This document shows, piece after piece, positions 17,177 to 32,098 of a stretch of DNA of 64,000 nucleotides. Both the position numbers and the translations under genes were made by a program. The notes under the pieces are model-generated. The model ran no database searches and was not told the DNA's origin. It saw only the letters and a list, made by a program, of their open reading frames with translations. Numbering within the stretch: position 1 is the first letter of the stretch; the number at the start of each line of letters is the position of its first letter. This DNA comes from Oscillospiraceae bacterium (lineage in GTDB: Bacteria > Bacillota > Clostridia > Oscillospirales > QAMX01). The DNA is taken from positions 62,001-126,000 of the forward strand of contig SVLQ01000004.1 of NCBI GenBank assembly GCA_015067825.1, given 5' to 3'.

Positions 17177-17205
17177 TTGAAAAACAGGGAAAAATATACT
17201 ATAAT
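17177..17205 (+). promoter_or_regulatory. Promoter of the 2-oxoacid dehydrogenase/rhamnose operon
   Basis: TTGAAA (17177-17182), exactly 17 bases, then TATAAT (17200-17205). It is the only strong promoter noticed ahead of the 14.6-kb plus-strand gene run. Confidence 0.85.
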
Positions 17206-17211
17206 AATAGA

Positions 17212-17336
17212 TGGCGAAATAGGTGCGTAGGGGAGAAGTATACCCTGCCGACGGTTTCGCAACCTGAAAACGTCAATTTTTTATTTCCGAAAGATTTCGA
17301 AATATCAAGAAAAAAGAACAAAGGAGAAGATCTATC
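17212..17336 (+). other. Long leader before the E2 gene
   Basis: About 125 bases of untranslated leader follow the promoter. It can form small hairpins (AGGG with CCCT, GGTT with AACC around TCGC) and has a T-rich stretch before the ribosome site. It matches no riboswitch class I can recognise. Confidence 0.35.
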
Positions 17337-18593
17337 ATGGCAAACATTGTTCTGATGCCGCAGCTGGGCATCTCGGAAGAATCCGCGGTCCTGTCGCAGT
17401 GGCGCGTCGCCGAAGGCGATGTGGTGAAGGCCGGTCAGATCCTGTTTACGCTGGAAACGGGCAAATCGTCGTTTGATGTGGAAAGCGAATTCGACGGTAC
17501 CGTTCTGAAACTTTTGTGCGATGAGGGCGACGAACTGCCCATCAAAGCACCGATCTGCGTGATCGGCGAACCCGGCGAAACCGTCGACGTTCCCGGCGCT
17601 GCCGCCGCTCCTGCTGCCGCGGAAGAAGCCGCTCCGGCCGTCGAGGAAAAAGTCGCCGCTCCGATCGCTGCTCCGGTGGCCACCGTTGCCGCCGACGATA
17701 AGCTCCATATCTCGCCGCGTGCGAGAAATCTCGCCGAAAAGACCGGCGCGGATCTCTCTGCCGTGACCGCGACCGGCCCCGAAGGCCGCATTATCGAACG
17801 CGACGTCGTCCGTGCGCTCAACGAAGGCAAGATCGGCAAGGCTGCTCCGGCCGTCGCCGAAGAAAAACCGGCCGCTCCGGCGCCTGCTGCCGAAACCAAG
17901 GCTGCCTACACCGTCGAACCGCTCACGCGCGTCCGCAAGGTCATTGCCGACAATATGCACCGCTCGCTCTCCGAAATGGCGCAGCTCACGCTCACCACTT
18001 CGTTCGATGCCACCGCGCTGCTCGATTTCCGCAAGGCGGCCAAGAGCGGCAAGATCGCCGGCCTCGAAGGCGTGACCTACAACGACATGATCCTCTTTGC
18101 CGTCTCGCGCACGCTGCTCGACTTCCCGTACTTCAACGCCCACTTCACCGGCGATGAATTCCACCTCTACAACACCGTCAATCTCGGCTTCGCCTGCGAT
18201 ACCGATAAAGGCCTGATGGTCCCGGTCATCAAGAACGCCGAAACGCTTTCGCTCAAGGCCCTTTCCGAACGCGCCAAGACGCTCGCGAAGTCGGCGCAGA
18301 GCGGCTCGATCGCCCCGGCCGATATGCAGGAAGGCACCTTTACCGTCTCCAACCTCGGCTCGCTCGGCATCGAAAGCTTTACCCCGGTCATCAACCCGCC
18401 GCAGACGGGCATTCTCGGCGTCAATACGCTGGAAACGCGCGTCCGCCTCGAAAACGGCAACCCCGTTTACTACACGGCGATGGGCCTCTCGCTCACGTTC
18501 GACCACCGCGCGGTCGACGGTGCTCCGGCCGCCCGCTTCCTCGCGGCGCTGAGAGCCAACCTTGAAAACTTCACGCTGCTGCTTGCAAAATAA
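17337..18593 (+). CDS. 2-oxoacid dehydrogenase E2 (dihydrolipoyl acyltransferase)
   Basis: Core acyltransferase of a pyruvate/branched-chain/acetoin dehydrogenase-type complex, 418 residues. One lipoyl domain (1-80) carries the lipoyl lysine in FTLETGKSSFDVES (Lys43). An Ala/Pro/Glu linker follows, then a peripheral-subunit-binding domain (about 124-162, ISPRARNLAEKTGADL), a second Ala/Pro linker, and the catalytic domain (about 190-418) ending in the active-site motif DHRAVDG (His390, Asp394). AAAGGAGAAGAT precedes the ATG. First gene of the operon, before E3 and fused E1. Substrate cannot be read from sequence. Confidence 0.93.
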   Translation: MANIVLMPQLGISEESAVLSQWRVAEGDVVKAGQILFTLETGKSSFDVESEFDGTVLKLLCDEGDELPIKAPICVIGEPGETVDVPGAAAAPAAAEEAAPAVEEKVAAPIAAPVATVAADDKLHISPRARNLAEKTGADLSAVTATGPEGRIIERDVVRALNEGKIGKAAPAVAEEKPAAPAPAAETKAAYTVEPLTRVRKVIADNMHRSLSEMAQLTLTTSFDATALLDFRKAAKSGKIAGLEGVTYNDMILFAVSRTLLDFPYFNAHFTGDEFHLYNTVNLGFACDTDKGLMVPVIKNAETLSLKALSERAKTLAKSAQSGSIAPADMQEGTFTVSNLGSLGIESFTPVINPPQTGILGVNTLETRVRLENGNPVYYTAMGLSLTFDHRAVDGAPAARFLAALRANLENFTLLLAK

Positions 18594-18618
18594 TTCTTAG
18601 GAAAACTGGTGAATCGTT

Positions 18619-19977
18619 ATGTATGATCTGATGATCCTCGGCGGCGGCCCCGCCGGTTACCGTGCCGCGGAAGTTGCGGCGGCCAACGGCATGAAAACCT
18701 TGGTCATTGAAAAACGCGCTTTGGGCGGTGTCTGCCTCAACGAAGGCTGCATTCCCTCCAAAACGCTTCTGCACTCGGCGAAGATCTACGACTACGCCAA
18801 GGGTGGCGGCGAAAAGTACGGTGTTTACGCCGAAAACGCCCGCCTCGACCACGCGTACGTCATCAAGAGAAAGGACAAGGTCGTCAAAACGCTCGTGCAG
18901 GGCATTGCCTATACGCTGAAAAACCACAAGGCCGACGTCGTTTACGCCGAAGCCAAGATCACCGGCCGCAGCGCCGAAGGCTTTACGGTCGAAGCCGAAG
19001 GCAAGACCTACGAAGGCAAAAAGCTGCTGATCGCCACCGGTTCGGAAGCACTGCTGCCGCCGATCAACGGCCTGCACGACGCTTATAAGGCCGGCTACGC
19101 GCTGACCAACCGCGAGATCCTCTCGCTCGAAAAAGTGCCCGCCTCGCTCTGCATCATCGGCGGCGGCGTCATCGGTCTGGAAATGGCCTCGTATTTCTGC
19201 TCGGCGGGCAGCAAAGTCACCGTCGTGGAAATGATGAACAAGATCGCCGGCCCCACCGACTCCGAGATCTCCGCGCTGCTGCTCGACCACTACAAGGCCA
19301 AGGGCGTGACCTTCCACCTCGGCGCGAAGGTTACCGCGCTGACCGACGGCTCGGTCACCTTTGAAAAAGACGGCGAGACCGTTACGATCGAGACCGAAAA
19401 GGCGCTCGTTTCCATCGGCCGCCGCGCAGTCACCAAAGAGATCGGCCTTGAGTCGATCGGCGTTCTGACCGAACGCGGTGCGGTCGTGACCGACGAACAG
19501 ATGAAGACCAACGTTCCCGGCGTGTTCGCCGCGGGCGACGTCAACGGCAAGTCGATGCTGGCGCACACGGCCTACCGCGAAGCGGAAGTCGCCGTCAACG
19601 TGATGCTCGGCAAAAAAGACCGCATGGACTACTCCGCAGTTCCGGCCGTCATCTACACCAATCCCGAATCCGCATCCGTCGGCGAAACCGAAGAAACCGC
19701 CAAAGCCAAGGGCTACGACGTTGAAGTCAAGAAGCTCTCGATGAACTACAGCGGCCGTTACCTCGCCGAAAACGAAGGCGGCAAGGGCATCTGCAAGGTC
19801 GTCTACGAAAAGGGCACCGAACGTCTGCTGGGCGTGGCGATGCTCGGCAATCCCGCCAGCGAGATCATCGTCGCCGCGACGGAAATGATCGCCCGCGAAG
19901 ACCGCATGGTCGATCTGCAGAAGGTCATCTTCCCGCACCCGACGGTGGGCGAAGTGCTCAGAGAAACCGCGTTTTAA
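18619..19977 (+). CDS. lpdA: Dihydrolipoyl dehydrogenase (E3)
   Basis: 452-residue flavoprotein disulfide reductase that reoxidises the lipoyl groups of E2 with NAD+. FAD motif LGGGPAGYRAAEVAA at residues 7-21, redox-active disulfide GGVCLNEGCIPSKTLL (Cys39, Cys44), NAD motif IIGGGVIGLEMASYF, and the C-terminal HPTVGEVLRE containing the catalytic His-Glu pair. No fused lipoyl domain. It starts 25 bases after the E2 stop and precedes E1. Confidence 0.95.
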   Translation: MYDLMILGGGPAGYRAAEVAAANGMKTLVIEKRALGGVCLNEGCIPSKTLLHSAKIYDYAKGGGEKYGVYAENARLDHAYVIKRKDKVVKTLVQGIAYTLKNHKADVVYAEAKITGRSAEGFTVEAEGKTYEGKKLLIATGSEALLPPINGLHDAYKAGYALTNREILSLEKVPASLCIIGGGVIGLEMASYFCSAGSKVTVVEMMNKIAGPTDSEISALLLDHYKAKGVTFHLGAKVTALTDGSVTFEKDGETVTIETEKALVSIGRRAVTKEIGLESIGVLTERGAVVTDEQMKTNVPGVFAAGDVNGKSMLAHTAYREAEVAVNVMLGKKDRMDYSAVPAVIYTNPESASVGETEETAKAKGYDVEVKKLSMNYSGRYLAENEGGKGICKVVYEKGTERLLGVAMLGNPASEIIVAATEMIAREDRMVDLQKVIFPHPTVGEVLRETAF

Positions 19978-20030
19978 GTTGTAAACCGTAAGTTTTCACG
20001 AACCATATCTATAAAAACATCACAGGAGGA

Positions 20031-22508
20031 TTGTTTTTTATGCCGAAGAGCCAATTTGTCGATCCTGCAAAAATGCGGGAGCCCGGAGTTCTTACCTTTA
20101 AGGATATTCCGATCAACGCTTATTCCAAGACCTTCGAACAGGAACGTGCGAATTTTTCCGACAACGACCTGATCGGGATCTTCAAGGACATGCAGTACAT
20201 CCGTGAATTCGAGACGATGCTGTTCTCCGTCCGTACCACCAAGCAGTACAACGACGTCGAATACGTCTACACCGGCCCGGCCCACCTCTATACCGGTCAG
20301 GAAGCCGGCGCTGTCGGTATGGCCTACAGCCTGACGATGGACGACTACATCTTTGGTAACCACAGAAGCCACGGCGAAGTGCTCGCCAAGGGTCTGGCTG
20401 CCATCAAGAATCTCGACGACGACAAGCTCTACGAGATCATGAAGAACTTTGCCGGCGGCAAGATCCTCTCCGTCGCCGAAGCCAACAACACCAGCGGCAA
20501 CATCAAAGACCTCGCCGTCGACTTCCTGCTCTACGGCTTCATGGCCGAACTCTTCGGCCGCGAAAACGGCTTTACGATGGGCCTTGGCAACTCGATGCAC
20601 GTCTTCTTCACGCCGTTTGGCATCTACCCGAACAACGCCATCGTCGGCGGCTCGGCCGGTGTCTCGGTCGGTGCGGGTCTCTACAAGCGCGTCAACAACA
20701 AGCCCGGCATCGTCGTCTGCAACATCGGTGACGGTTCGCTCGGCTGCGGCCCGGTCTGGGAAGCGATGAACTTTGCCGCGCAGGATCAGTTCACCCAGCT
20801 GTGGGACGAAGCCCACAAGGGCGGCCTGCCGATCATCTTCAACTTCTTCAACAACCACTACGGCATGGGCGGTCAGACCCGCGGCGAAACGATGGCCTAC
20901 GATATCCTCGCCCGCGTCGGCGCCGGTATCTCGCCCACCCAGCTGCACTCCGAACGCGTCGACGGCTACAACCCGCTGGCCGTTATCGATGCCTTCCGCC
21001 GCAAGAGAGAGATCATCGAACGCCGCGAAGGCCCGGTCCTTCTCGATACCGTTACCTACCGCTACGTCGGCCACTCCGCGACCGACTCCTCGAGCTACCG
21101 TACGCCCGAAGAAATCGAAGCCTGGCGCGCCCACGATTCGATCGCTGCGTTCAAGGAACAGCTCCAGAAGAACGAAATCGCCGACGCCGATCTGTGCGCC
21201 AACCTCGAAGAGGGCATCAAGGAACGCATTACGCGCATCATGAAGCTCGCCATCGACGATTCGATCTCCCCGCGTATCAACCTCGCCGCCAACCCCGACG
21301 GCATCCGCAACCTCATCTTCTCCAACGAACGCAAGGAAAAGATGTCGGACGAGAAGCCCGAAACTCTCACCGCTTACGCCGACAACAGCCGTGTTAAGAA
21401 GCTCGCCGACAAGATCCGCTGCGGTATCGACAAGGACGGCAAGCCGGTCTCCAAGCTTAAGACGCTCTCGATCCGCGATGCTCTGTTTGAAGCGATCTTC
21501 TCCAAATTCTATGAAGATCCGACTCTCATCGCCTTCGGCGAAGACAACCGCGACTGGGGCGGCGCGTTCGGCGTCTACACCGGTATGACCGAATCGCTCC
21601 CGTATCACCGCTTCTTCAATGCGCCGATTTCCGAAGGCACGATCGTCGCCGCTTCCGTTGGCTATGGTCTCTGCGGCGGCCGCGCGATCCCCGAGCTCAT
21701 GTACTGCGACTTCCTCGGCCGCGCCGGCGACGAAGTCTTCAACCAGCTCGCCAAGTGGCAGGCGATGAGCGCCGGCATCCTCAAGATGCCCGTCGTGCTC
21801 CGCGTTTCCTGCGGCTCCAAGTACGGCGCGCAGCATGCGCAGGACTGGACGAGCCTGACGACCCATATCCCGGGCCTCAAGGTCTGCTTCCCGGTCACCC
21901 CGTACGATGCCAAGGGTATGATGAACGCCGCCCTCGCCGGCACCGACCCGGTCATCTTCTTCGAAAGCCAGAAGCTCTACGACATGGGCGAAATGTTCCG
22001 CGACGAAGTTCCGGAAGGCTATTACGAAATCCCGCTGGGCGAACCGGACGTCAAGCGCGTCGGTAAGGACATCACGATCCTCAGCGTCGGCGCCTCGCTG
22101 TACGCTGCGGTCGAAGCCGCCAAGCAGCTCCAGGAAAAATACGGCCTCGAAGCCGAAATCATCGATGCCCGCAGCCTTGTCCCGTTCAACTACGAACCGG
22201 TCGTCGAATCCGTCAAGAAGACGGGCCGCATCATTCTCGTGTCCGACGCCTGCGAACGCGGCTCGCACCTGAACGATATGGCGCGCAACATCACCGAATT
22301 CGCTTTCGATTACCTCGATGCGCCGCCGGTCGTCGTCGGTGCCCCGAACGTGATCTCTCCGTGCCCGGAACTCGAAAGCTACTACTATCCGCAGGCCGCG
22401 TGGATCCTCGACGCGATCAACGAAAAGATCCTGCCGCTGCCCGGCCACACCGGCGTCAACAACTTCACCACGCTGGAGAAGATCCGCCGCGAAAAGCTCG
22501 GTATCTAA
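20031..22508 (+). CDS. 2-oxoacid dehydrogenase E1, alpha and beta fused
   Basis: 825-residue thiamine-diphosphate dehydrogenase in which the alpha (about 1-400) and beta (about 475-825) subunits are one chain. The ThDP motif starts at GDGSLGCG (230-237) and ends at NNHYGMGG (271-278). The beta part begins with TLSIRDALFEAIFSKF and contains FGEDNRDWGGAFGVYTGM. It would decarboxylate a 2-oxoacid and load the acyl group on E2. Fused E1s are known, but the partner genes here are rhamnose enzymes. Pyruvate, a branched-chain oxoacid, acetoin or an unknown oxoacid are all possible. Confidence 0.92.
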   Translation: MFFMPKSQFVDPAKMREPGVLTFKDIPINAYSKTFEQERANFSDNDLIGIFKDMQYIREFETMLFSVRTTKQYNDVEYVYTGPAHLYTGQEAGAVGMAYSLTMDDYIFGNHRSHGEVLAKGLAAIKNLDDDKLYEIMKNFAGGKILSVAEANNTSGNIKDLAVDFLLYGFMAELFGRENGFTMGLGNSMHVFFTPFGIYPNNAIVGGSAGVSVGAGLYKRVNNKPGIVVCNIGDGSLGCGPVWEAMNFAAQDQFTQLWDEAHKGGLPIIFNFFNNHYGMGGQTRGETMAYDILARVGAGISPTQLHSERVDGYNPLAVIDAFRRKREIIERREGPVLLDTVTYRYVGHSATDSSSYRTPEEIEAWRAHDSIAAFKEQLQKNEIADADLCANLEEGIKERITRIMKLAIDDSISPRINLAANPDGIRNLIFSNERKEKMSDEKPETLTAYADNSRVKKLADKIRCGIDKDGKPVSKLKTLSIRDALFEAIFSKFYEDPTLIAFGEDNRDWGGAFGVYTGMTESLPYHRFFNAPISEGTIVAASVGYGLCGGRAIPELMYCDFLGRAGDEVFNQLAKWQAMSAGILKMPVVLRVSCGSKYGAQHAQDWTSLTTHIPGLKVCFPVTPYDAKGMMNAALAGTDPVIFFESQKLYDMGEMFRDEVPEGYYEIPLGEPDVKRVGKDITILSVGASLYAAVEAAKQLQEKYGLEAEIIDARSLVPFNYEPVVESVKKTGRIILVSDACERGSHLNDMARNITEFAFDYLDAPPVVVGAPNVISPCPELESYYYPQAAWILDAINEKILPLPGHTGVNNFTTLEKIRREKLGI

Positions 22509-22545
22509 ACGCGATACCGAAAAAAACGGAAAGGAACTACAAATT

Positions 22546-23808
22546 ATGCAGACAACTGCTGTCCGCCTTTACGGTAAAGACGACCTGCGCCTGGAGACCT
22601 TTGAGCTCCCGGCGCTCGGCGACAACGAGATCCTTGCGCGTGTCATCTCCGACTCGATCTGTATGTCGAGCTTCAAAGCGGCCGAACAGGGTGCCGACCA
22701 CAAACGCGTGCCCAACGACTGCGCCGAAAACCCGGTCATGATCGGCCACGAATTCTGTGGCGAACTGGTCGCTGTCGGCAAAAACTGGCAGCACAAATAC
22801 AAAGCCGGCGACAAATTCTCGATCCAGCCGGCCATCAACCACAACGGTTCTCTCGCCGCACCCGGTTACTCCTACCAGTATATCGGCGGCGACGCCACTT
22901 ACATCATCATCCCCAACGAAGTCATGGAGCACGACTGCCTGCTGCCGTACCATGCCGATGCCTATTTTTACGGCTCGCTGGCCGAACCGATGAGCTGTGT
23001 CATCGGTGCCTTCCATGCCAACTACCACACGAAACAGGGCAGCTACGTCCATGAAATGGGCATCCGCGAAGGTGGCTGCATGGCGCTGCTCGCGTCCGCC
23101 GGCCCGATGGGTATGGGTGCGATCGACTATATCATCCACTGTGACCGCCGTCCGCGTCTGCTGGTCGTCACCGATATCGACGATGCGCGCCTGACCCGCG
23201 TTGCCTCGCTGATCACGGTCGAAGAAGCCGCGAAAAACGGTGTCGAGCTGCACTACGTCAATACCTCGTCCGGCGCGGAAGCGGAAGCTGCGATCATGGC
23301 GCTTACCGACGGCAAGGGCTACGACGACGTTTTCTGCTTTGCTCCGGTGCGTCCGGTCGTCGAGATGTCCGACCGCCTGCTCGGCCACGACGGCTGCCTG
23401 AACTTCTTTGCCGGCCCGATGGACAAGAAGTTTGCCGCCGAGCTGAACTTCTACAACGTCCACTATGCCGCGACCCATATCGTCGGCACCTCCGGCGGCA
23501 ACACCGACGATATGCTCGAGGCGCTTTCAATGATGGAAAAGGGTCTGGTCAATCCGGCTGCGATGGTCACCCATATCGGCGGCCTCGACGCCGTCGTCGA
23601 TACGACGCTCCGTCTGCCCAAGATCCCGGGCGGCAAAAAGCTGATCTATACGCATATTTCGATGCCGCTGACTGCGATCGCGGATTTCGCCAAGCTGGGC
23701 GAGACCGATCCGCTGTTTGCCAAGCTCGCCGAGATCTGTGACAGAAATAACGGCCTCTGGAGCACGGAAGCCGAGCAGTATCTGCTTTCCGTAAAGGCGG
23801 TGGACTGA
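22546..23808 (+). CDS. Zinc-type dehydrogenase similar to L-sorbose-1-phosphate reductase (SorE)
   Basis: 420-residue medium-chain dehydrogenase. Catalytic zinc ligands appear as Cys in DSICMSSFKAAEQG and His-Glu in VMIGHEFCGELVAVG. A Rossmann region (LLASAGPMGMGAIDY) binds NAD(P). The overall layout, with a short loop without the four-Cys structural zinc site and the EPMSCVIGAFHANYH segment, resembles SorE, which reduces L-sorbose 1-phosphate to glucitol 6-phosphate. It lies between fused E1 and the aldolase/SDR fusion, whose SDR half resembles glucitol-6-phosphate dehydrogenase. Actual substrate unknown. Confidence 0.75.
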   Translation: MQTTAVRLYGKDDLRLETFELPALGDNEILARVISDSICMSSFKAAEQGADHKRVPNDCAENPVMIGHEFCGELVAVGKNWQHKYKAGDKFSIQPAINHNGSLAAPGYSYQYIGGDATYIIIPNEVMEHDCLLPYHADAYFYGSLAEPMSCVIGAFHANYHTKQGSYVHEMGIREGGCMALLASAGPMGMGAIDYIIHCDRRPRLLVVTDIDDARLTRVASLITVEEAAKNGVELHYVNTSSGAEAEAAIMALTDGKGYDDVFCFAPVRPVVEMSDRLLGHDGCLNFFAGPMDKKFAAELNFYNVHYAATHIVGTSGGNTDDMLEALSMMEKGLVNPAAMVTHIGGLDAVVDTTLRLPKIPGGKKLIYTHISMPLTAIADFAKLGETDPLFAKLAEICDRNNGLWSTEAEQYLLSVKAVD

Positions 23809-23809
23809 T

Positions 23810-25762
23810 ATGCCGCTGACCGATATCATCGCGCTGTCTAATTTCTACGGCTCCGATCCCGACTACGTGCTCGCCGGCGGCGGCAATACGTCGGTCAAAG
23901 AGCAGGGCGTTCTCTACGTCAAAGCCAGCGGTACGCGCCTCGGCGACATCACCGCGGAAGGCTTTGTCGCGCTCAGCATGGAAAAACTGACTGCGATCAC
24001 CGAAAAAACGTATTCCGACGACGAGAAAACGGCGGAAGCCGAAGTTCTCGCCGATATGATGGCCTCGCGCCTGCCCGGCATGAGCGGCCGGCCGAGCGTG
24101 GAAGCGCTGCTGCACGCGCTCTTCCCGCAGAAGCTGGTCGTCCACCTGCACCCGGCCGCCGTCAACGGCGTGACCTGCGGTGCCGAGGGCATGGCCGCTG
24201 CCAAGCGCCTGTGGGGCGAAGACTGTGTCTGGCTCGATGAGATCAAGCCGGGCTACACGCTCGCGATGGGCGCAAAGGCCGCGATGGATGCCTACAAAGC
24301 CGCATCCGGCAAGGATGCCGATCTGCTCGTGATGCAGAACCACGGTATCTTCTTCGCCTCCGATACCAAAGACGAGATCACCGCGCTGATCGACCGTGCG
24401 ATGGCTGCGGTCAAGGCCGCTGCCGAAACGCCGGATACGGCCGACGCCGCGTTTGACGACGCCGACGTTGCCGCAATTGCGCCGGTCGTCCGCTCGCTGA
24501 CGGTCGTCGACGGCTACGCCTGCTTCTTTACGAATGCCGCGCTGAAAGCGCAGTCGGAGACGTGGGCGGGCACGACGCTGTGCGCGATGACCCCGGACCA
24601 TATCGTCTACATCGGCCACGCGTTCGTCTGTGTCGACCGTATCGAAGATCTTGAAGCGCAGTATGCCGCGATCGAAGCGGCGGTCAAGGCGTTCGTCGCC
24701 GAAAACGGATATGTGCCCAAGGTCGTCGTGATCAAAGGTCTCGGTGCGTTTGCCTGTGCGTCTTCCTGGAAGGATGCCCAGACGATCAAAGCGCTCTTCA
24801 ACGATTTCGTCAAGATCAACGCCTATGCCGCGAGCTTCGGCGGTGCCAAACTGATGGCCGATTCGATGATCGCGTTCATCCGCAACTGGGAAGTCGAGAG
24901 CTACCGCAAGAGTGTTTCGATGGCCGGTTCGGCTGCCAAGCGCATGGCGGGCAAGATCGCCATCATGACCGGCGGTGCGCAGGGCTTTGGCGCGGGTCTC
25001 GCGGAAGAACTCTGCAAAAACGGTGCTTCCGTCGTCATTGCCGACATCAATATGGCCGGTGCCGAGGCGTTTGCCAACACGCTGAACGAAAAGTTCGGCG
25101 CGGGTTCGGCTGCTGCGGCGGCGTGCGACGTCTCCAACGAAGAATCCGTCAAGGCGCTGATGGACAAGACCTGTGCGCACTTCGGCGGTCTGGACGTGTT
25201 CGTCTCCAACGCCGGTATCGTCCGTTCGGGCGGTCTGGAAGAGATGGATGCCAAAACCTTCGATCTGATGACGCGCGTCAATTACGTCGCCTTCTTCCAC
25301 TGCACGAAGTACGCTTCGCGCGTGATGAAGCTGGAAACGCGTTTTGCCCCGGGCAAGATCTGCGACGTGATCCAAATCAACTCCAAATCCGGCCTCACCG
25401 GTTCCAACAAGAACTTTGCCTACGCCGGTGCGAAATTCGGCGGCATCGGTCTGGTGCAGTCGTTTGCGCTGGAGCTCATTCCGTATAACATCAAAGTCAA
25501 CGCCATCTGCCCGGGCAACTTCCTCAACGGCCCGCTGTGGATGGACCCCGAACGCGGCCTTTTCGTGCAGTATCTGCGCGCGGGCAAGGTTCCGGGTGCG
25601 AAAACGGTCGAGGACGTCAAGCGCTTCTACGAAGCCAAGGTTCCGATGAACCGCGGCTGCGAGATCGAAGACGTCGTGACGGCGCTCTTCTATGCCATTG
25701 AACAGAAGTACGAAACCGGACAGGCGATCCCTGTCACGGGCGGACAGAATATGCTGAAATAA
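23810..25762 (+). CDS. Bifunctional class II aldolase / short-chain dehydrogenase (RhaEW-like)
   Basis: 650-residue fusion. The N-terminal class II aldolase (about 1-380) has the phosphate loop GGGNTSVKEQ, metal ligands in HLHPAAVNG, and a third His in QNHGIFFA. The C-terminal SDR (about 383-650) has TGGAQGFGAGLAEEL for NAD(P) and the catalytic YAGAK. Such fusions act as L-rhamnulose-1-phosphate aldolase plus lactaldehyde dehydrogenase. The SDR half, however, closely recalls glucitol-6-phosphate 2-dehydrogenase (QINSKSG, AKFGGIGL, GQAIPVTGGQNML). Neighbours rhaB and rhaA support rhamnose use. The ATG begins one base after the SorE-like stop. Confidence 0.85.
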   Translation: MPLTDIIALSNFYGSDPDYVLAGGGNTSVKEQGVLYVKASGTRLGDITAEGFVALSMEKLTAITEKTYSDDEKTAEAEVLADMMASRLPGMSGRPSVEALLHALFPQKLVVHLHPAAVNGVTCGAEGMAAAKRLWGEDCVWLDEIKPGYTLAMGAKAAMDAYKAASGKDADLLVMQNHGIFFASDTKDEITALIDRAMAAVKAAAETPDTADAAFDDADVAAIAPVVRSLTVVDGYACFFTNAALKAQSETWAGTTLCAMTPDHIVYIGHAFVCVDRIEDLEAQYAAIEAAVKAFVAENGYVPKVVVIKGLGAFACASSWKDAQTIKALFNDFVKINAYAASFGGAKLMADSMIAFIRNWEVESYRKSVSMAGSAAKRMAGKIAIMTGGAQGFGAGLAEELCKNGASVVIADINMAGAEAFANTLNEKFGAGSAAAAACDVSNEESVKALMDKTCAHFGGLDVFVSNAGIVRSGGLEEMDAKTFDLMTRVNYVAFFHCTKYASRVMKLETRFAPGKICDVIQINSKSGLTGSNKNFAYAGAKFGGIGLVQSFALELIPYNIKVNAICPGNFLNGPLWMDPERGLFVQYLRAGKVPGAKTVEDVKRFYEAKVPMNRGCEIEDVVTALFYAIEQKYETGQAIPVTGGQNMLK

Positions 25763-25772
25763 TTTTGGGCGC

Positions 25773-25875
25773 GCGGCGCGTACTCTATGTGCGCGCCGCA
25801 CGCCGACTTGTTTTTCTGCCGACGGCGGGAAAACGATCTTTGCGGAAGGCTTTTCCGCGGAAAGGCAGAAAATAA
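25773..25875 (+). other. Structured spacer inside the rhamnose operon
   Basis: The spacer before the PHP gene holds a GC-rich inverted repeat (GCGGCGCG with CGCGCCGC around 25782-25800) and a short palindrome TTTCCGCGGAAA near 25852. No T tract follows the first stem, so RNA processing or pausing is more likely than termination. Confidence 0.35.
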
Positions 25876-27159
25876 ATGACTCTCGAACAACTGACGATCC
25901 GTCTGAATCACCCCACGCTTGCGGTGCGTCTGAACGCGCTGAAAGAGCTTGTCGAAAAGGAAAAGGCAGGGGAGCTCGCTCCGGTCGAATGCCAGGGCGA
26001 CGTCAATAACCATATCCATACGTGGTATTCCTTCTCGCCGTATTCCCCGACCAAAGCCGCGTGGCTTGCCCACCGCGCCGGACTGGCGACGGCCGGCATC
26101 ATGGACCACGACAGCATCGCCGGTGCGGCCGAATTTCTGGCTGCCGGTGAGATCCTCGGTCTGGACGTCACCAGCGGTCTGGAACTGCGCGTGTCGTTTG
26201 CGGATACGCCGTTCGGCGATCGCCGCATCAATAACCCCGACCAGTCGGGTATTGCCTACATCGCGCTCCACGCCGTCCCCGAATGCGGCCGTGCGGTCAT
26301 CGCCGAATACCTTAAGGGTGTTTCGCTCGCGCGTGCCCGCCGCAACCGCAAAATGGTCGACAAGATCAACGCGCTGATCGCACCGCTGGAGATCAAAATG
26401 GAGTACGCCTGCGACGTTCTTCTCTACACCTCCAAAAAGGGTGCGGGCGGCAGCGTGACCGAACGCCATCTCCTTTACAGCCTTGCCGGCAAGCTCATCG
26501 ATAAATTCGGCAAGGGCGAAAAGCTCATTGACGCGCTGGAAAACCAGCTCGGCCTTAAAATTAGCGACAAAAACCGTGCTTGGCTCTCCGATACCAATAA
26601 TCCGGGCTATGCCTACGACGTGCTCGGCGTTTTGAAAGGCGAACTCGTCGCGAAGATCTACGTCGACGCCGATACCGACGAATGCCCCGACGTGCGCGAA
26701 GTCATCGCGCTGGCCAAAAAAGCCGGTGCGATCTGCGCCTATGCCTACCTCGGCGACGTCGGCAGCTCTGTCACCGGCGATAAGCGCCCGCAGAGTTTCG
26801 AGGATTCGTATCTCGACGACCTGATCCCGTACCTGAAAGACCTCGGCTTCAACGCCGTGACGTATATGCCCTCGCGCAACACTCCCGAACAGCTCACGCG
26901 TCTCAAGGCGCTCTGCGAAGCAAACGAACTCTTCCAGATCAGCGGCGAAGATATCAACTCTCCGCGCCAGAGCTTCGTCTGCCTTGCGGCCCGCGCGCCG
27001 GAATTTGCCAACCTGAAAACCGCGGCCTATGCCCTGATCGGCAGCGAAAAGGCGGCGAAGGACGATGCCGGCAAGAGCATGTTTGCCGACGCACAGGTCG
27101 CGGCCGAACCCTCGCTCAATGCTCGCACCGAGGCGTTCGCCGCACTCGCGCACAACTGA
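25876..27159 (+). CDS. PHP-domain phosphoesterase-like protein
   Basis: 427-residue protein with a polymerase-and-histidinol-phosphatase (PHP) domain. The metal-binding motifs NNHIHTWYSFSPYSP (HxH, about residues 41-43) and MDHDSIAGAAEF are clear, and GLELRVSF provides a further acidic ligand. The second half has no domain I recognise but ends with further PHP-like motifs (TYMPSRNTPEQL). PHP enzymes hydrolyse phosphate esters. In this operon, between the aldolase fusion and rhaB, it may remove a sugar-phosphate intermediate or overflow; that is inference. Confidence 0.8.
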   Translation: MTLEQLTIRLNHPTLAVRLNALKELVEKEKAGELAPVECQGDVNNHIHTWYSFSPYSPTKAAWLAHRAGLATAGIMDHDSIAGAAEFLAAGEILGLDVTSGLELRVSFADTPFGDRRINNPDQSGIAYIALHAVPECGRAVIAEYLKGVSLARARRNRKMVDKINALIAPLEIKMEYACDVLLYTSKKGAGGSVTERHLLYSLAGKLIDKFGKGEKLIDALENQLGLKISDKNRAWLSDTNNPGYAYDVLGVLKGELVAKIYVDADTDECPDVREVIALAKKAGAICAYAYLGDVGSSVTGDKRPQSFEDSYLDDLIPYLKDLGFNAVTYMPSRNTPEQLTRLKALCEANELFQISGEDINSPRQSFVCLAARAPEFANLKTAAYALIGSEKAAKDDAGKSMFADAQVAAEPSLNARTEAFAALAHN

Positions 27160-27195
27160 ACCGATCAAAAAACGACGAAAGGCGGTCTTGACCGA

Positions 27196-28671
27196 ATGAA
27201 CAAACGCTTCCTGACATTCGACTATGGCGCGTCGAGCGGACGCGGCATTCTCGCCGAATTCGACGGACAACAGCTCTCTGTCCGCGAGATCCACCGCTTT
27301 GTGAACGATCCGATCAATGCCTTCGGCCACTATTACTGGGATCTTCTGCGCCTGTTCCAGGAGATCAAAACGGGTCTGATCAAGCTCAAGCGCGAAGGTA
27401 TCACCGATATCGCGTCGATGGGCGTCGATACTTGGGGTGTCGATTTTGCGCTGCTCGACCAGTACGATAAGCCTCTGAGCAACCCGTTTTACTACCGCGA
27501 CAGTCTGACCGACGGCGCGATGGAGGCGGTTTACTCCATCATCCCCAAAAAAGAGATCTACGAACGCACGGGCATTCAGTTCATGAAGTTCAACACGATC
27601 TTCCAGCTCTACGCGCTCCGTCAGCGCTATCCCGCACTTCTCGATAACGCCAAGACCCTGCTTCTGATGCCCGACCTCTTAAACTTCATGCTCACGGGCG
27701 TGAAGTCGGCGGAATATTCGATGGCGTCGACGACGCAGCTCCTCGATGCCCGCACGCAGCAATGGGATCCGGAGATCCTTGAACGCCTTGATATCCCCAA
27801 GGATATCTTCCTGCCGGTCACCCAGCCCGGCCGCATCCTTGGCAATACGACCGACGAGGTCTTTGCCGAGACCGGTATGCGCGTTCCGGTCGCCTCCGTC
27901 TGCGGCCACGATACGGGCAGCGCGGTTCTGGCGATCCCGATGGAAAAAGGCGAACGTTGTGCCTATATTTCCTGCGGCACTTGGAGCCTGCTCGGTGTCG
28001 AACGCGACGCTCCGCAGACCGACGATGCCGCCTATGCGATCGAGTACACCAACGAAGGCGGCTTCGGCGGTACGATCCGTTTCCTCAAAAATATCATGGG
28101 TCTCTGGATCCACCAGGAAGTCAAGCGCGAACTCGAAAAAGAGTACGGCCCGATCAGCTACGCCGTCCTCGACGCCGAAACCGAAGCTGCTCCGGCGTTT
28201 GCCCGCTTCATCGACCCCGACGACGACGTGTTCTTCGACAAGGGCGGCATGATCGGCAAGATCCGCGACTACTGTATCGCCACCGGCCAGACTCCGCCGG
28301 AAACGCGCGGCGAGATCTTCCGCTGCGTGCTCGAGAGCCTTGCGTTCAAGTACCGCTATGCGGTCGAACAACTCGAATCCATGCTCGGCTACGACCTGCC
28401 GGTCATCCGCGTGGTCGGCGGCGGCTGCAAGGACATCATGCTGATGGCCTACACCGCGCGTGCCACCGGTCGCCGTGTGCTTGCCGGCCCGATTGAAGCG
28501 ACCGCCATCGGCAACATCTGTGCGCAGATGATCGCCACGGGTGTCGTCAAGGACGTTTGGGAAGCGCGTGAGATCGTCGCCCGTTCCTTCGAGATTAAGG
28601 ACTACACGGTCACCGAACGCGACGGTTGGGACGAACAGTACGGCCGTTTCCTCAAACTGATCAAAAAATAA
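27196..28671 (+). CDS. rhaB: Rhamnulokinase
   Basis: 491-residue FGGY-type kinase that phosphorylates L-rhamnulose to L-rhamnulose 1-phosphate. The N-terminal ATP-binding start LTFDYGASSGRGILAEF, the SMGVDTWGVDFALLD segment and the second-domain VCGHDTGSAVLAIP and VVGGGCKDIMLMAYTARATGR match RhaB well. Length is normal. The gene follows the PHP gene at 36 bases and precedes the Gfo/Idh gene at 15 bases. Confidence 0.95.
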   Translation: MNKRFLTFDYGASSGRGILAEFDGQQLSVREIHRFVNDPINAFGHYYWDLLRLFQEIKTGLIKLKREGITDIASMGVDTWGVDFALLDQYDKPLSNPFYYRDSLTDGAMEAVYSIIPKKEIYERTGIQFMKFNTIFQLYALRQRYPALLDNAKTLLLMPDLLNFMLTGVKSAEYSMASTTQLLDARTQQWDPEILERLDIPKDIFLPVTQPGRILGNTTDEVFAETGMRVPVASVCGHDTGSAVLAIPMEKGERCAYISCGTWSLLGVERDAPQTDDAAYAIEYTNEGGFGGTIRFLKNIMGLWIHQEVKRELEKEYGPISYAVLDAETEAAPAFARFIDPDDDVFFDKGGMIGKIRDYCIATGQTPPETRGEIFRCVLESLAFKYRYAVEQLESMLGYDLPVIRVVGGGCKDIMLMAYTARATGRRVLAGPIEATAIGNICAQMIATGVVKDVWEAREIVARSFEIKDYTVTERDGWDEQYGRFLKLIKK

Positions 28672-28686
28672 ACAGGGGATAAAGAT

Positions 28687-29754
28687 ATGGAACATAAACT
28701 TGGTTTTATTGGTTTCGGCGGCATGGCCGAACACCATTACAGAATGGGCAAACGCGAAGACATCGCGATGGAACCGGTCGCCGTGTTCGACATCCGTGCC
28801 GAACGCAGAGAACGTGCCGAAGAACTCGGCATGAAGGCCTACGATAACGTCGCCGATTTCCTCGCCGATAAGCGCTTCGACGTCGTTGTCGTCGCGACTC
28901 CCAACCAGTTCCACTGCCTCTATACCTGCAAGGCGCTGGAAGCCGGCTACAACGTCATCTGCGAAAAACCGGCGGCGATGAACACCGCCGAGGTCGAAAA
29001 GATGATCGCCACCGCCGAGCGCGTGGGCAAGATCTTTACGATCCACCAGAATCGCCGTTTCGACGAGGATTTCCGCGTGGCCAAGAAGGTATACGAAGCT
29101 GGTTACCTCGGCAAGCCGTATATGCTCGAATCGCGCATCGAAAGCCCCGACGGCAACGGCTGTATGTACAACTGGCGCGGTATGCTCGACCACGGCGGCG
29201 GCATGTTCCCCGACTGGGGCGTGCATATGCTCGACCAGCTCCTGTGGCTCATCGGCACACCGGTGCGCTCGGTCTATGCCAAAATCAGCACCATCCACTC
29301 CGAAGAAGTCGACGACTATTCCAAACTGCTGCTCACGTTTGACGACGGTCTGACCGCGCAGGTCGAAGTCGCGACCTTCGGTCCGGTCGCGCGCCCGCGC
29401 TTCAATTTCTACGGCACGCAGGGCGCGGCCGTTCTGGAAGAGATGGATTGGCCGGTGATGAAGGTGCGCCGTGTCTCCGCGTCCGAATATGAACCCAACG
29501 AATGCCCGGCATACCTCGAAAACGAGGTCACCACGCGCCATCAGCGCATCCATAAGGTCAAGCGCTTTGAGGAATTCTACGAAACCAGCAACGACACCGA
29601 ACACGGCTGGCATCACTACTACGAGCACTTTAAGAATACGCTCGACGGCAAAGAAGAACTGCTCGTCAAGCCCGAACAGGTGCTGCAGTGCATGCGCGTG
29701 ATCGATGCCGCGTTTGAATCCGCGCGCGAAAACAAGGTCGTTTATCTCGGCTAA
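28687..29754 (+). CDS. Gfo/Idh/MocA family oxidoreductase
   Basis: 355-residue NAD(P)-dependent sugar oxidoreductase. The N-terminal Rossmann motif LGFIGFGGMAEHHYRMG (residues 4-20) and the EKPAAMNTAEVEKMI segment with the conserved Lys are typical, and the C-terminal substrate domain carries GGGMFPDWGVHMLDQLLWL with the His seen in this family. These enzymes oxidise or epimerise sugars and inositols. It lies between rhaB and rhaA, so a rhamnose-derived or rhamnoside-derived substrate is plausible. Confidence 0.88.
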   Translation: MEHKLGFIGFGGMAEHHYRMGKREDIAMEPVAVFDIRAERRERAEELGMKAYDNVADFLADKRFDVVVVATPNQFHCLYTCKALEAGYNVICEKPAAMNTAEVEKMIATAERVGKIFTIHQNRRFDEDFRVAKKVYEAGYLGKPYMLESRIESPDGNGCMYNWRGMLDHGGGMFPDWGVHMLDQLLWLIGTPVRSVYAKISTIHSEEVDDYSKLLLTFDDGLTAQVEVATFGPVARPRFNFYGTQGAAVLEEMDWPVMKVRRVSASEYEPNECPAYLENEVTTRHQRIHKVKRFEEFYETSNDTEHGWHHYYEHFKNTLDGKEELLVKPEQVLQCMRVIDAAFESARENKVVYLG

Positions 29755-29779
29755 ACCGAATCAATAAAGGAGCTTTCAC

Positions 29780-31030
29780 ATGGATATGATGAAACAGTAC
29801 GAACTCGCCCGCGAACAGTTCGCGGCCTACGGCGTCGATACCGATGCCGCCATCGAAAAAGCACTGTCCGTTCCCGTGTCGCTGCACTGCTGGCAGGGCG
29901 ACGACGTCGTCGGCTTTGAAAATCCCGAGGGTGCGCTGACCGGCGGTATTCAGACCACCGGCAACTATCCCGGCAAAGCCCGTACCCCGGCCGAACTCCG
30001 CGCCGATATCGAAAAAGTTCTGTCGTTTGTCCCGGGCGAAACCAAGGTCTCGCTCCATGCGACCTACCTCGACGTCGATGCGCCGGTCTCCCGCGATCAG
30101 ATCGGCCCCGAACACTTCGCCCGTTGGGTCGAATGGGCCAAGGGCCAGAAGATCGGTCTCGACTTTAACGAAACCTTCTTCTCCCACCCGCTGTCCGGCG
30201 ACTTCTCCATCACCAATGCCGATCCGGGCATCCGCAAGTTCTGGATCGACCACGCCAAAAACTGCCGCAAGATCGCCGAAAGCTTCGGCAAAGAAACCGG
30301 CAAGACCTGTGTGACCAACTTCTGGATCCATGACGGCTGCAAGGAAGTTCCGGTCGACCGCTTTGCGCCGCGCGCCCGCCTGGTCGAAGCGCTCGACGAA
30401 GTGTTCGCCGAAAAGATCGATCCGAAGTACAACCGTGATACGCTCGAAAGCAAGCTCTTCGGCATCGGCAGCGAAAGCTACGTCGTCGGCAGCCACGAAT
30501 TCTACATGGGCTACTGCACCTCTCGTCAGATGATGGCCACGCTCGACACCGGCCACTTCCATCCGACGGAACTCGTCTCCAACAAGATCTCCGCGATGCT
30601 TCTCTTCCTGCCCGAACTGATGCTCCACGTTTCCCGTCCGGTCCGTTGGGACAGCGACCACGTGGTCGTGATGGACGACGAACTGATGGCGATCATGCAG
30701 GAGATCGTGCGCAACGGCATCGAAGACCGCGTGCACATTGGCCTCGACTACTTCGACGCCTCGATCAACCGTATCGCCGCCTGGACGGTCGGTGCCCGCA
30801 ACGCCCGCAAAGCGCTGCTTCGCGCCTACCTCGAACCGGTCGAACTGCTCAAGAAGTACGAAATCGACGGCGACAATACCTCCGTCCTCGCCATCACCGA
30901 AGAACTCAAGAGCCTGCCGTGGGGCATCGTCTGGGATTACCTCTGCGAGAAGACCGGCAAATACGCCGGCCGCACCTGGCTCGACGAAACCAAAAAGTAC
31001 GAAGCGGAAGTTACCTCCAAGAGAGCGTAA
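29780..31030 (+). CDS. rhaA: L-rhamnose isomerase
   Basis: 416-residue metal-dependent TIM-barrel isomerase converting L-rhamnose to L-rhamnulose, the first step of catabolism. The N-terminal [19 protein letters not shown] segment is a strong RhaA signature, and [37 protein letters not shown] and DTGHFHPTE supply barrel residues with metal-binding Glu/Asp/His. Length fits the family. Good AAAGGAG site. Confidence 0.95.
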
Positions 31031-31069
31031 GCCGCACCATATTCCGATCGAACGAAAGAAGGTACGACT

Positions 31070-31438
31070 ATGACTTACGGCAAAACCACGTGGCTCATCG
31101 GCGACGGTTACTGGGATTCCCACTCCAACGGCCTGTTTAACAGCCATGAATCGGTCTGTGTGCTCAATACCTCGGACAAAGATGCCACGATCACGATGAC
31201 GCTCTATTTCGAAGACCGCGATGAAATGGGCGGCTTCGTCGCCAAATGCGGCGCCAAACGCACCCACCACATCCGCATGGATAAACTCATCTCGCAGGAA
31301 GGCAAAGCCGTCCCGCAGGACGTTCCGTACGCGATTCTTGTCGAAAGCGACGTTCCGGTCGTCGTGCAGTACAGCCGCCTGATGTCGTCGCAGCCCGAAC
31401 TCGGTCTGATGTCGACGATCGCTTACCCGGTGGAATAA
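31070..31438 (+). CDS. Sensory rhodopsin transducer-like (ASRT-family) protein
   Basis: 122-residue soluble beta-sandwich protein of the family named after the Anabaena sensory rhodopsin transducer. Family features visible are WLIGDGYWDSHSNGLFNSHE at the start, a LYFEDRDEMGGF strand, THHIRMDKL, and VPVVVQYSRLMSSQPELGL near the end. No rhodopsin gene occurs in this window. ASRT relatives occur in sugar-metabolism neighbourhoods and are predicted to bind small molecules. Here it sits directly after rhaA and before a small membrane protein, which suggests a ligand-binding role linked to rhamnose. Confidence 0.85.
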   Translation: MTYGKTTWLIGDGYWDSHSNGLFNSHESVCVLNTSDKDATITMTLYFEDRDEMGGFVAKCGAKRTHHIRMDKLISQEGKAVPQDVPYAILVESDVPVVVQYSRLMSSQPELGLMSTIAYPVE

Positions 31439-31476
31439 GGCAAATGCGCATGTTCGTGCGAAAGGGGGCATGACGG

Positions 31477-32001
31477 TTGAATACGCATAATCTGGAAAAA
31501 CTCGACGTGTATAAGCACGGGTCGATCTGGTTCCGCATTTATATGTTCGGCTATCTCTACGGATTTCTGATCGCCTATTCGGTCGTTATGCTCGGTTTCC
31601 TCTCCAGTCAGGAGATGTGGCTCGATATCATCCATACGTGGTCGGGCAAAGAAGCGACCTACGCGGGCGTCCATTCGATCTGCTCGGTCATTCTGGTCGC
31701 TTCTGCCGTGATCAATGCGGCGTTGATGCCGATGGTCAACAAGTGGGCGTATATCGCAACGGTGACGCATCTTTTGGTGCTGCTGACTCACCGTCCGCTG
31801 ATCTTTGTGCTCACGAAGATCTTTGTCGGCCCGTTGCCCGAGTCCTTCGGCAGCTATACGAGCTTTCTTCTGCCGATCGCGGTTGTCTTCGTCGTGCCGA
31901 ACCTTTGGTATTTCTTCCGCCGCCGCGACCTCTTCACAAAGGATATTGTGAAGATCGTCACCGGGCAGGAAAAAGACGAGATCACCAGCGAATTCCGTTA
32001 A
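31477..32001 (+). CDS. Small multi-pass membrane protein of unknown function
   Basis: 174 residues with four predicted transmembrane segments: FRIYMFGYLYGFLIAYSVVM, VHSICSVILVASAVINAAL, YIATVTHLLVLLTH/LIFVLTKIFVG, and FLLPIAVVFVVPNLWYFF, then a charged C-terminus. The TTG start at 31477 follows AAAGGGGG at 31461-31468. Last gene of the rhamnose operon, immediately before its terminator. I recognise no family. It could be a partner of the preceding ASRT-like protein; it is too small for a known sugar permease. Confidence 0.7.
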   Translation: MNTHNLEKLDVYKHGSIWFRIYMFGYLYGFLIAYSVVMLGFLSSQEMWLDIIHTWSGKEATYAGVHSICSVILVASAVINAALMPMVNKWAYIATVTHLLVLLTHRPLIFVLTKIFVGPLPESFGSYTSFLLPIAVVFVVPNLWYFFRRRDLFTKDIVKIVTGQEKDEITSEFR

Positions 32002-32007
32002 CCATTC

Positions 32008-32056
32008 GATCCCGCTGTTTTTGCCGGCTTATCCGGCCAAAACAGCGGGATCGTTT
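32008..32056 (+). terminator. Terminator of the rhamnose operon
   Basis: A near-perfect 20-bp stem (32008-32027 with 32033-32052) and loop CTTAT, followed by GTTTTG. Confidence 0.9.
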
Positions 32057-32098
32057 TGTCGTGGTGCGGCATAGCATGGTGAGAGGGGAGATGATGCT

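Follow-up and report, generated by a model that had tools for sequence, protein, structure and literature searches.

Gene content and organization of the locus

The window examined here is a stretch of 64,000 nucleotides from an Oscillospiraceae bacterium (GenBank assembly GCA_015067825.1, contig SVLQ01000004.1, positions 62,001 to 126,000), in which the E1, E2 and E3 components of a dehydrogenase complex of the thiamine diphosphate (TPP)- and lipoate-dependent type are encoded together with genes of L-rhamnose catabolism; the subject of this text is that complex and its proposed substrate. Open reading frame (ORF) calling and NCBIfam and Pfam searches of the window gave 11 genes on the plus strand at 17337-32001, in the order E2, E3, fused E1, zinc dehydrogenase (MDR), class II aldolase fused to a short-chain dehydrogenase/reductase (SDR), PHP-like protein, RhaB-type kinase, Gfo/Idh protein, RhaA, ASRT protein and a small ORF (Table 1). 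Long antisense ORFs, which overlap these supported genes, were ignored. An earlier note on this DNA had listed E2, E3, fused E1, the aldolase fusion, RhaB, a Gfo/Idh enzyme and RhaA, and the searches confirmed that content. The source genome (G000, 2.7 Mb, with the window on contig C4) holds a single copy of the fused E1 and a lipoate-protein ligase scoring above its cut-off, and carries the fucose isomerase FucI on another contig (C3), where it is accompanied by an SDR and a homologue of FGGY kinases. No lactaldehyde reductase above cut-off was found by profile search of this genome, one match being cut by a contig end.

Table 1. Features of the gene run and its putative expression signals (positions in the window).
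Feature	Positions	Strand	Basis
Promoter-like site of sigma-70 type (TTGAAA-17-TATAAT) preceding E2	17177-17205	+	Consensus scan, 11/12
E2: lipoyl, E3-binding and 2-oxoacid_dh acyltransferase domains	17337-18593	+	Pfam PF00364, PF02817, PF00198
E3, dihydrolipoyl dehydrogenase	18619-19977	+	TIGR01350, 457.5 bits, above cut-off 408.8
Fused E1 alpha/beta, TPP-dependent type	20040-22508	+	Pfam E1_dh, Transket_pyr and Transketolase_C
SorE-type zinc dehydrogenase (MDR; sugar-1-phosphate reductase type)	22546-23808	+	53% identity to Klebsiella sorE product (98% of length), 55.7% to YggP
Class II aldolase domain fused to sorbitol-6-phosphate-dehydrogenase-like SDR	23810-25762	+	PF00596 and PF00106
Hairpin and U-tract in 113-bp gap, possible attenuator or partial terminator	25768-25818	+	Fold of 25762-25830
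PHP-domain-like protein	25876-27159	+	PF02811 below gathering score, 22.2 vs 26.4 bits
RhaB-type FGGY kinase	27196-28671	+	TIGR02627, 503.1 bits, just under cut-off 527.95
Gfo/Idh/MocA oxidoreductase, between RhaB and RhaA	28687-29754	+	Pfam
RhaA, L-rhamnose isomerase	29780-31030	+	TIGR01748, 651 bits, above cut-off 584.95
ASRT-domain protein	31070-31438	+	PF07100, 145.8 bits
Small ORF, membrane-protein-like by composition	31477-32001	+	No Pfam match
End hairpin	32007-32053	+	Fold of 32003-32062, -36.5 kcal/mol, z -9.4

The genes are separated by 1-62 bp, with the single exception of 113 bp between the aldolase fusion and the PHP-like gene. The clear promoter and terminator that the earlier note had placed at the two ends stood in part: a promoter-like site and a stable end hairpin are present, but just four T in a row follow the hairpin, which is missing from the list of the terminator scan. 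The consensus scan returned 10 promoter-like sites in 18 kb, with 5.6 expected from shuffles. The further statement that no terminator intervenes did not survive, as there is a hairpin in the 113-bp gap, with UUGUUUUU behind it, and this region folds at -41.2 kcal/mol (z -4.95); no promoter-like site was found in the gap by the consensus scan. In the window strain, the gene run may be split or attenuated at this hairpin. In genome G018 the matching gap is 2 bp and the PHP gene overlaps the kinase gene, which makes a single transcript plausible there; in its run E2-E3-E1-MDR-aldolase/SDR-PHP-RhaB-RhaA-ASRT-small ORF there are two overlaps, and no gap exceeds 67 bp. A DeoR gene lies upstream of E2 in G009.

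Recurrence of the cassette and co-occurrence with deoxyhexose genes

One scan of genome contigs yielded 115 relatives of the fused E1, of which the best 80, 54-79% identical, were kept. By title, the contigs belong to Bacillota, Clostridia, Bacteroidota, Kiritimatiellae, Planctomycetota, Acidobacteriota, Calditrichia, Spirochaetes, Propionibacteriaceae (Tessaracoccus, Arachnia) and others. Counting the genome of the window itself, 11 of the 21 genomes in its family have E1, and the core order E1-MDR-aldolase/SDR recurs in three genera beyond that of the window (G018, G019, G009, G010, G011, G005 and G006, E1 of G005 being truncated by a contig end), running on into RhaB and RhaA in G018, G005, G009, G010 and G011. 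In a fourth genus (G008), the reductase lies upstream of E2 and the rhamnose genes are on the opposite strand. A strain-specific arrangement was thus rejected. In family f2, genomes G080 and G145 carry LipA, lipoate ligase, RhaA, aldolase, E2-E3-E1, MDR, SDR, PHP and RhaB consecutively. Beyond the order, E1 is found with RhaA and RhaB in Clostridiaceae (L007), Raymondbacteria (L031) and, on the opposite strand, Porphyromonadaceae (L021), and near fucose genes in L015 (FucI), L016 (fuculokinase above cut-off), L018 and L076 (FucI homologues). The same fused E1 has rhamnose or fucose genes in its vicinity in Clostridia, Bacteroidota, Kiritimatiellae and Tessaracoccus.

The accessory genes of the window recur to differing extents. 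PHP homologues were found repeatedly near E1 in other loci, an ASRT homologue adjoins RhaA in G018, G009, G010 and G011, and a 29% identical homologue of the small membrane-like ORF occupies the same place in G018; the Gfo/Idh gene is not between RhaB and RhaA in G018 and G009 (gene order of L097 and L101). The components are also found apart from each other: the reductase-aldolase/SDR-PHP group is on a contig other than that of E1 in G039, G186 and G155, and RhaB, RhaA, FucI, the reductase and a gene resembling mannitol-1-phosphate 5-dehydrogenase (MtlD-like) are grouped away from E1 in G048. E1 proteins of 51-54% identity are encoded on plasmids of Rhizobium, Pleomorphomonas and Agrobacterium in surroundings of kinases (PfkB or XylB) and sugar transporters; a separate lipoyl protein is encoded there too, as is an alpha/beta hydrolase that one record annotates as acoC.

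Across the order-wide set of 295 genomes (thresholds E ≤ 1e-100 for E1, 1e-80 for MDR, 1e-50 for RhaA and 1e-80 for FucI), E1 was found in 77, the SorE-type MDR in 85, RhaA in 131 and FucI in 88. The reductase accompanies E1 closely, occurring in 58/77 E1-positive versus 27/218 E1-negative genomes (odds ratio 21.6, p 3e-24, a significance that is overstated because the genomes are not phylogenetically independent). FucI was present in 45/77 versus 43/218, RhaA in 49/77 versus 82/218, and at least one of the two isomerases in 58/77 versus 94/218. E1 and the reductase lie within 12 kb of each other in 35 of 58 genomes, with 0.7 expected by a simple chance estimate for a 2-Mb genome; for E1 and RhaA this holds in 9 of the 49 genomes with both, against 0.6 expected by the same estimate. 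Together with the rhamnose and fucose neighbours in other phyla, these distances bear out the link between complex and rhamnose genes proposed in the earlier note, and the neighbourhood comparison extends it beyond a single strain.

Several observations on E1 neighbourhoods may be recorded in their own right. L028, L029, L030, L037, L048, L052, L054 and L058 have a transaldolase-family gene in the same orientation as E1 and no more than 8 kb from it, which would fit an erythrose-4-phosphate product. In Rhizobium johnstonii plasmid pRL8 (L133), the sugar cluster that contains the fused E1 also encodes an RbsD/FucU family protein, a PfkB kinase and ABC transporters, and a homoserine dehydrogenase gene lies about 10 kb away. 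The fused E1 of an Arthrobacter plasmid (L144) is of another, distant type (33%); its neighbours there are a class II fructose-bisphosphate aldolase, an FGGY kinase, a lipoyl protein and a sugar transporter.

The fused E1 resembles acetoin dehydrogenases at its active site

The curated NCBIfam models do not place the complex among pyruvate dehydrogenases (PDH): E1 reached 227.1 of 454 and 205.9 of 393.85 bits, and E2 285 of 722 and 273 of 445 bits. Active-site residues were compared with acetoin dehydrogenases of Paracoccus (L143), E. faecalis (L140) and S. meliloti (L137), the first two each accompanied by a 2,3-butanediol dehydrogenase and a sigma-54 regulator and the third by an acetoin-type E2, and with two PDH (L138, L141) and one branched-chain 2-oxoacid dehydrogenase (BCKDH; L139) references, the last three being assigned by annotation. 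His108 and Met554 of the window E1 are as in the acetoin dehydrogenases, whereas the PDH and BCKDH references have Phe, Tyr and Tyr at the first position and Gln at the second. Asp557 is likewise shared with the acetoin enzymes and replaced by Gly in the PDH references, but Asp is also found in the BCKDH reference, so this residue speaks against PDH only. Among 104 unique near-full-length E1 sequences, His108 is conserved in 104, Met554 in 103 and Asp557 in 104; His599 and Glu532, which align with the catalytic-type His and Glu of PDH, are found in 104 each, Lys594 in 103 and Arg561 in 91.

A FastTree phylogeny separated PDH and BCKDH from a group of acetoin enzymes, the fused E1 and the Arthrobacter fused E1 with a support of 1.000. 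The AlphaFold2 model of E1 (pLDDT 89.2, pTM 0.91) matched PDH and BCKDH E1 beta in Foldseek with TM scores of up to 0.94 by target, and as a whole chain 2-oxoglutarate/2-oxoadipate-type E1 and transketolase. These matches confirm the E1 fold of the predicted model, a fold that leaves the substrate undecided.

Partner enzymes of the sugar-phosphate reductase and hexitol-phosphate dehydrogenase types

Over 98-99% of its length, the MDR of the window is 52-53% identical to annotated sorE products of Klebsiella, Citrobacter and Serratia; its identity to E. coli YggP is 55.7%. Among 26 MDRs compared, the window's included, 25 are 45-54% identical to Klebsiella SorE, the odd one being a paralogue in L043 (26%). 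Five NCBIfam models matched the window protein, none of them a SorE model; the IolM model (59 of 450 bits) was set aside in favour of SorE after the homology to sorE had been found. In Klebsiella, sorE sits with an SDR in a cluster of the mannose/fructose/sorbose-type phosphotransferase system. The gene for E. coli YggP (L131), annotated merely as a zinc-binding dehydrogenase, has cmtAB, glpX and a transketolase gene in its vicinity.

The SDR partner may point to hexitol phosphates. The five standalone cassette SDRs that were scored (L006, L007, L009, L012 and L032) reached 353-374 bits, all above the cut-off of 307 of NF009050, and for six standalone SDRs the identity to E. coli SrlD, the sorbitol-6-phosphate dehydrogenase, is 46-51%, versus 31-35% for the comparison with the SDR half of Deinococcus RhaEW. 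For the fused SDR of the window the corresponding values are 38% and 29%, and the fusion does not reach the RhaEW model TIGR02632 (244.8 bits, cut-off 567.75). An MtlD-like protein replaces the SDR in L010, L029, L034, L044 and L075. Within the best-80 set, 24 loci have the reductase: 17 with an SDR, 5 with an MtlD-like protein, none with both and 2 with neither, one of these at a contig end. Counting all 46 MDR places, duplicates and short stretches included, an SDR was found in 29, an MtlD-like protein in 5, both in none and neither in 12, which except for L020 are short stretches or cut by a contig end.

Sorbose-1-phosphate reductase reduces the ketone beside the phosphate. The regiochemistry assumed below was taken in part from record names, namely sorbose-1-phosphate reductase, sorbitol-6-phosphate 2-dehydrogenase and mannitol-1-phosphate 5-dehydrogenase. 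As judged from their sequences, these partners disfavour a 2-oxoacid substrate and point toward the chemistry of a sugar-phosphate reductase and a hexitol-phosphate dehydrogenase.

A fucose version without class II aldolase

A fucose version of the cassette was found in family f2 (L152, genome G095), where FucI, an FGGY kinase, E2, E3, E1, MDR, SDR and PHP share one orientation and neither the gaps nor the overlaps between them exceed about 50 bp, and no class II aldolase was found in the 19.9 kb of this locus. The sole PF00596 match in G095 (91% complete) and in G157 (89% complete) is a protein of the L-ribulose-5-phosphate 4-epimerase (AraD) type, above the cut-off of NF006047 and under that of the stricter TIGR00760. 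In G197, which has both FucI and RhaA, a second PF00596 protein lies about 0.3 kb from RhaA. Loci L012 and L013 combine a rhamnulokinase-type kinase with MDR, SDR, E1-E3 and PHP on contigs that have neither an aldolase nor an isomerase. A lactaldehyde-specific module was considered as the common denominator of the rhamnose and fucose loci and was dropped, since it misfits both the sugar-phosphate enzyme types and the aldolase-free fucose operon.

AraD acts as an epimerase, and L-rhamnulose-1-phosphate and L-fuculose-1-phosphate are C4 epimers by their Fischer configurations, so the aldolase of the rhamnose versions could work in the manner of AraD. Speculatively, its class II aldolase domain might provide a second exit to dihydroxyacetone phosphate (DHAP) and lactaldehyde, or act as a 4-epimerase converting rhamnulose-1-phosphate to fuculose-1-phosphate; it could equally be an ordinary aldolase.

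Proposed pathway and its stereochemistry

From the recurrent cassette, its partner families, the residue signature of E1 and the enrichment of deoxyhexose isomerases, all of which are observed, we infer an order of reactions and a substrate for E1. The complex would be an acetoin-dehydrogenase-like enzyme acting on a 1-deoxyketose phosphate derived from 6-deoxyhexoses, a reading to which a probability of about 0.5 may be given. By family membership of the enzymes, rhamnose or fucose would first be isomerised and phosphorylated to L-rhamnulose-1-phosphate or L-fuculose-1-phosphate. The SorE-type reductase would then reduce the C2 keto group beside the phosphate to give a 6-deoxyhexitol-1-phosphate, and the SDR, or in other lineages the MtlD-like protein, would oxidise the far-end carbon beside the methyl group to a 1-deoxyketohexose-6-phosphate (CH3-CO-CHOH-R). 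The TPP of E1 would attack this ketone and the adjacent C-C bond would be cut as in acetoin, releasing a tetrose-4-phosphate, while the acetyl unit would pass through E2 and E3 to yield acetyl-CoA and NADH.

The configurations were followed with a Fischer bookkeeping script, which reproduced three controls (glucitol-6-phosphate and mannitol-1-phosphate to fructose-6-phosphate, and L-sorbose-1-phosphate to glucitol-6-phosphate). L-Rhamnose and L-fucose expose the configuration that SrlD oxidises, and D-quinovose, D-rhamnose and D-fucose that oxidised by MtlD. With a SorE-like stereochemistry, both L-rhamnose and L-fucose would lead to D-threose-4-phosphate and the D-6-deoxyhexoses to D-erythrose-4-phosphate. 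Two of the five MtlD loci (L044 and L075) carry a distant sulfoquinovose-isomerase-like gene (88 bits in L044 against a cut-off of 700), and in a third (L029) a transaldolase gene lies beside the MDR; these genes would be consistent with D-sugars and with erythrose-4-phosphate. The MtlD-like gene of L010, found together with PHP and aldolase, is not explained by this L/D scheme. Generalised to a widespread aldolase-independent route for L-fucose, L-rhamnose and probably D-6-deoxyhexoses, with a C2 to C5 shift of the keto group, cleavage by a lipoate/TPP complex, a choice between SrlD and MtlD according to L or D configuration and an aldolase that may be a 4-epimerase, the proposal has slightly less than an even chance of being correct.

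The proposed pathway would explain the joint occurrence of a SorE-type reductase with a hexitol-phosphate dehydrogenase and a lipoyl complex, the attachment of all three to rhamnose and fucose genes alike, and the possibility of a fucose version that has no aldolase. Its logic is familiar from L-sorbose catabolism, in which a reductase/dehydrogenase pair shifts the keto group along the chain: there too a ketose-1-phosphate reductase (SorE) is followed by a sorbitol-6-phosphate dehydrogenase (SorD; SrlD in the case of sorbitol), but here a 6-deoxyketose-1-phosphate would place the new ketone beside a methyl group and thereby feed a TPP enzyme. With the acetoin dehydrogenase complex (AcoABC-L), the window complex shares a TPP-dependent E1 having His, Met and Asp at the three positions and transfer through a lipoyl E2, and in its Rhizobiales relatives a lipoyl protein and an alpha/beta hydrolase likewise come after E1. 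It differs in the fusion of E1 alpha and beta, a branch of its own, the sugar-operon context, a PF00198-type E2 and the nearly invariant Lys594 (103/104) near the catalytic-type His599. The PDH complex has the same E1-E2-E3 architecture and E1 fold, whereas E1 and E2 of the window fall under the curated cut-offs and the PDH-type residues are replaced. The RhaEW pathway, with an aldolase fused to lactaldehyde dehydrogenase (PMC3870299), also has a class II aldolase-SDR fusion adjoining RhaA and RhaB. Unlike RhaEW, the window fusion has an SDR nearer to sorbitol-6-phosphate dehydrogenase, is joined by a SorE-type reductase and E1-E2-E3, and scores below the TIGR02632 cut-off.

Points against the proposal and alternative explanations

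A number of findings weigh against this pathway. It does not account for PHP, Gfo/Idh and ASRT, for loci with DeoR-E2-E3-E1 and no other partners nearby (L114, L116, L117 and L118), or for the fate of D-threose-4-phosphate, for which no enzyme was identified. The weight of the partnerless loci is lessened by G039 and G186, where a reductase-aldolase/SDR-PHP group stands on a contig other than that of E1. Among E1-positive genomes, 19/77 have no reductase and 19/77 neither RhaA nor FucI, and the dependence among genomes mentioned above weakens the statistics. The Acidobacteria loci have no reductase, L041 has none on its short contig, and L020 has a reductase with neither SDR nor MtlD; conversely, a 46-47% identical reductase lies near FucI in G199 and G217, in whose genomes no E1 is found. 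The fusion of the window (237 bits) and the SDR of L152 (210 bits) are both under the NF009050 cut-off, and all MtlD-like proteins scored, those of L010 and L041 included, are under curated cut-offs. In the tree, the fused E1 forms a separate long branch outside the acetoin clade, and the same His/Met/Asp state is shown by a Novosphingobium E1 (L142) that clusters with the acetoin enzymes and has a beta subunit carrying a pyruvate dehydrogenase annotation. A class II aldolase domain is encoded in each of the 11 loci that combine RhaA, E1, reductase and SDR (the window, L007, L021, L031, L097, L100, L101, L102, L105, L107 and L108), so lactaldehyde can form in the rhamnose versions, and with G095 91% complete, the aldolase of the fucose version could be missing from the assembly.

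The alternative that survives best, itself unlikely, is a dedicated pyruvate dehydrogenase: the aldolase would release DHAP and L-lactaldehyde, the SDR would form lactate, another enzyme pyruvate, and the complex acetyl-CoA. RhaEW fusions of B. subtilis and Chloroflexus are reported to convert rhamnulose-1-phosphate to DHAP and lactate, with NAD needed by the Chloroflexus enzyme (PMC3870299), so the classical route may operate in the rhamnose versions. This explanation is suited by the class II aldolase domain of the window and by the nearest solved relatives of E1, which are PDH and BCKDH E1, but the best fusions in plasmids share just about 27% identity with that of the window, and no lactaldehyde-forming aldolase was found in G095, which has the fucose version. 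A pyruvate substrate also sits poorly with E1 scores far under the cut-offs of the curated PDH models (227 of 454 and 206 of 394 bits), with His108 and Met554, which are unlike the PDH and BCKDH references, and with partners of the sugar-phosphate-reductase and hexitol-phosphate-dehydrogenase types.

The distribution of pyruvate:ferredoxin oxidoreductase (PFOR), scored as a match to its model at E ≤ 1e-200 with the misses of E1-positive genomes tallied by eye, speaks on both sides. PFOR is encoded in 257/295 genomes, comprising 58/77 E1-positive and 199/218 E1-negative ones, and in the window's genome it scores well above cut-off; the fused-E1 complex is not a general substitute for it. PFOR is nevertheless missing more often in the presence of E1 (19/77 versus 19/218), which would also fit a pyruvate role and counts against a sugar-phosphate substrate. 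This excess is due in part to incompleteness: at least 90% completeness and at most 5% contamination are reached by 46/77 E1-positive genomes versus 226/295 overall, and in that class PFOR is missing from 5/46 (G018, G074, G111, G180 and G270) versus 9/180. Of the two ideas offered in the earlier note, a 2-oxoacid formed from lactaldehyde or lactate is disfavoured by the partner types, the two E1 residues, the presence of PFOR and the aldolase-free fucose version, with the more frequent absence of PFOR in its favour, whereas "an unlisted branch of the pathway" looks right in view of the conserved linkage to rhamnose and fucose genes.

A further, rather improbable alternative is that the substrate is another sugar-derived acyloin, such as 1-deoxyxylulose-5-phosphate, or an ordinary ketose phosphate yielding glycolyl-CoA, the deoxyhexoses being one use among several. 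This would accommodate the Rhizobiales loci, where E1 stands with PfkB or XylB kinases and without deoxyhexose isomerases, the transaldolase adjoining E1 in Acidobacteria, and the 19/77 E1-positive genomes of the order that have neither RhaA nor FucI; the enrichment of FucI and RhaA and the pair of reductase and hexitol-phosphate dehydrogenase are best suited by a 6-deoxyketose. Incidental or regulatory clustering, in which an ordinary acetyl-CoA-forming complex is merely induced by deoxyhexoses, is very improbable, for although partnerless DeoR-E2-E3-E1 loci exist, the cassette recurs across phyla with the same partner types and E1 tracks the SorE-type reductase genome-wide.

Flanking genes

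Two divergent minus-strand genes at 13445-16982 adjoin the operon and have homologues in the same place in L003/L099, L097 and L106; they are taken to be alpha-mannosidase-like and ROK-type kinase-like. Behind the operon, and ahead of three tRNA genes, comes an ORF at 32099-32872, which presumably resembles a GH25-type lysozyme. In-frame stops were reported in RhaA of G215 (C60) and in an E1 fragment of G097 (C176).

Implications

Rhamnose and fucose are major sugars of plants, algae and mucins, and their textbook routes go via lactaldehyde to propanediol, propionate or lactate. Among the titles listed by literature searches of open-licence papers, none was on a pathway such as that proposed here; the enzyme families are known already, and their combination and the substrate would be new. 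If the 1-deoxyketose phosphate pathway is correct, a direct route to acetyl-CoA would change the predicted fermentation products and redox balance of many gut and sediment bacteria and would avoid a toxic aldehyde. It would also assign a function to a group of proteins that go by the name 'alpha-ketoacid dehydrogenase subunit alpha/beta' at present, and add a new class of substrate to the 2-oxoacid/acetoin dehydrogenase family.

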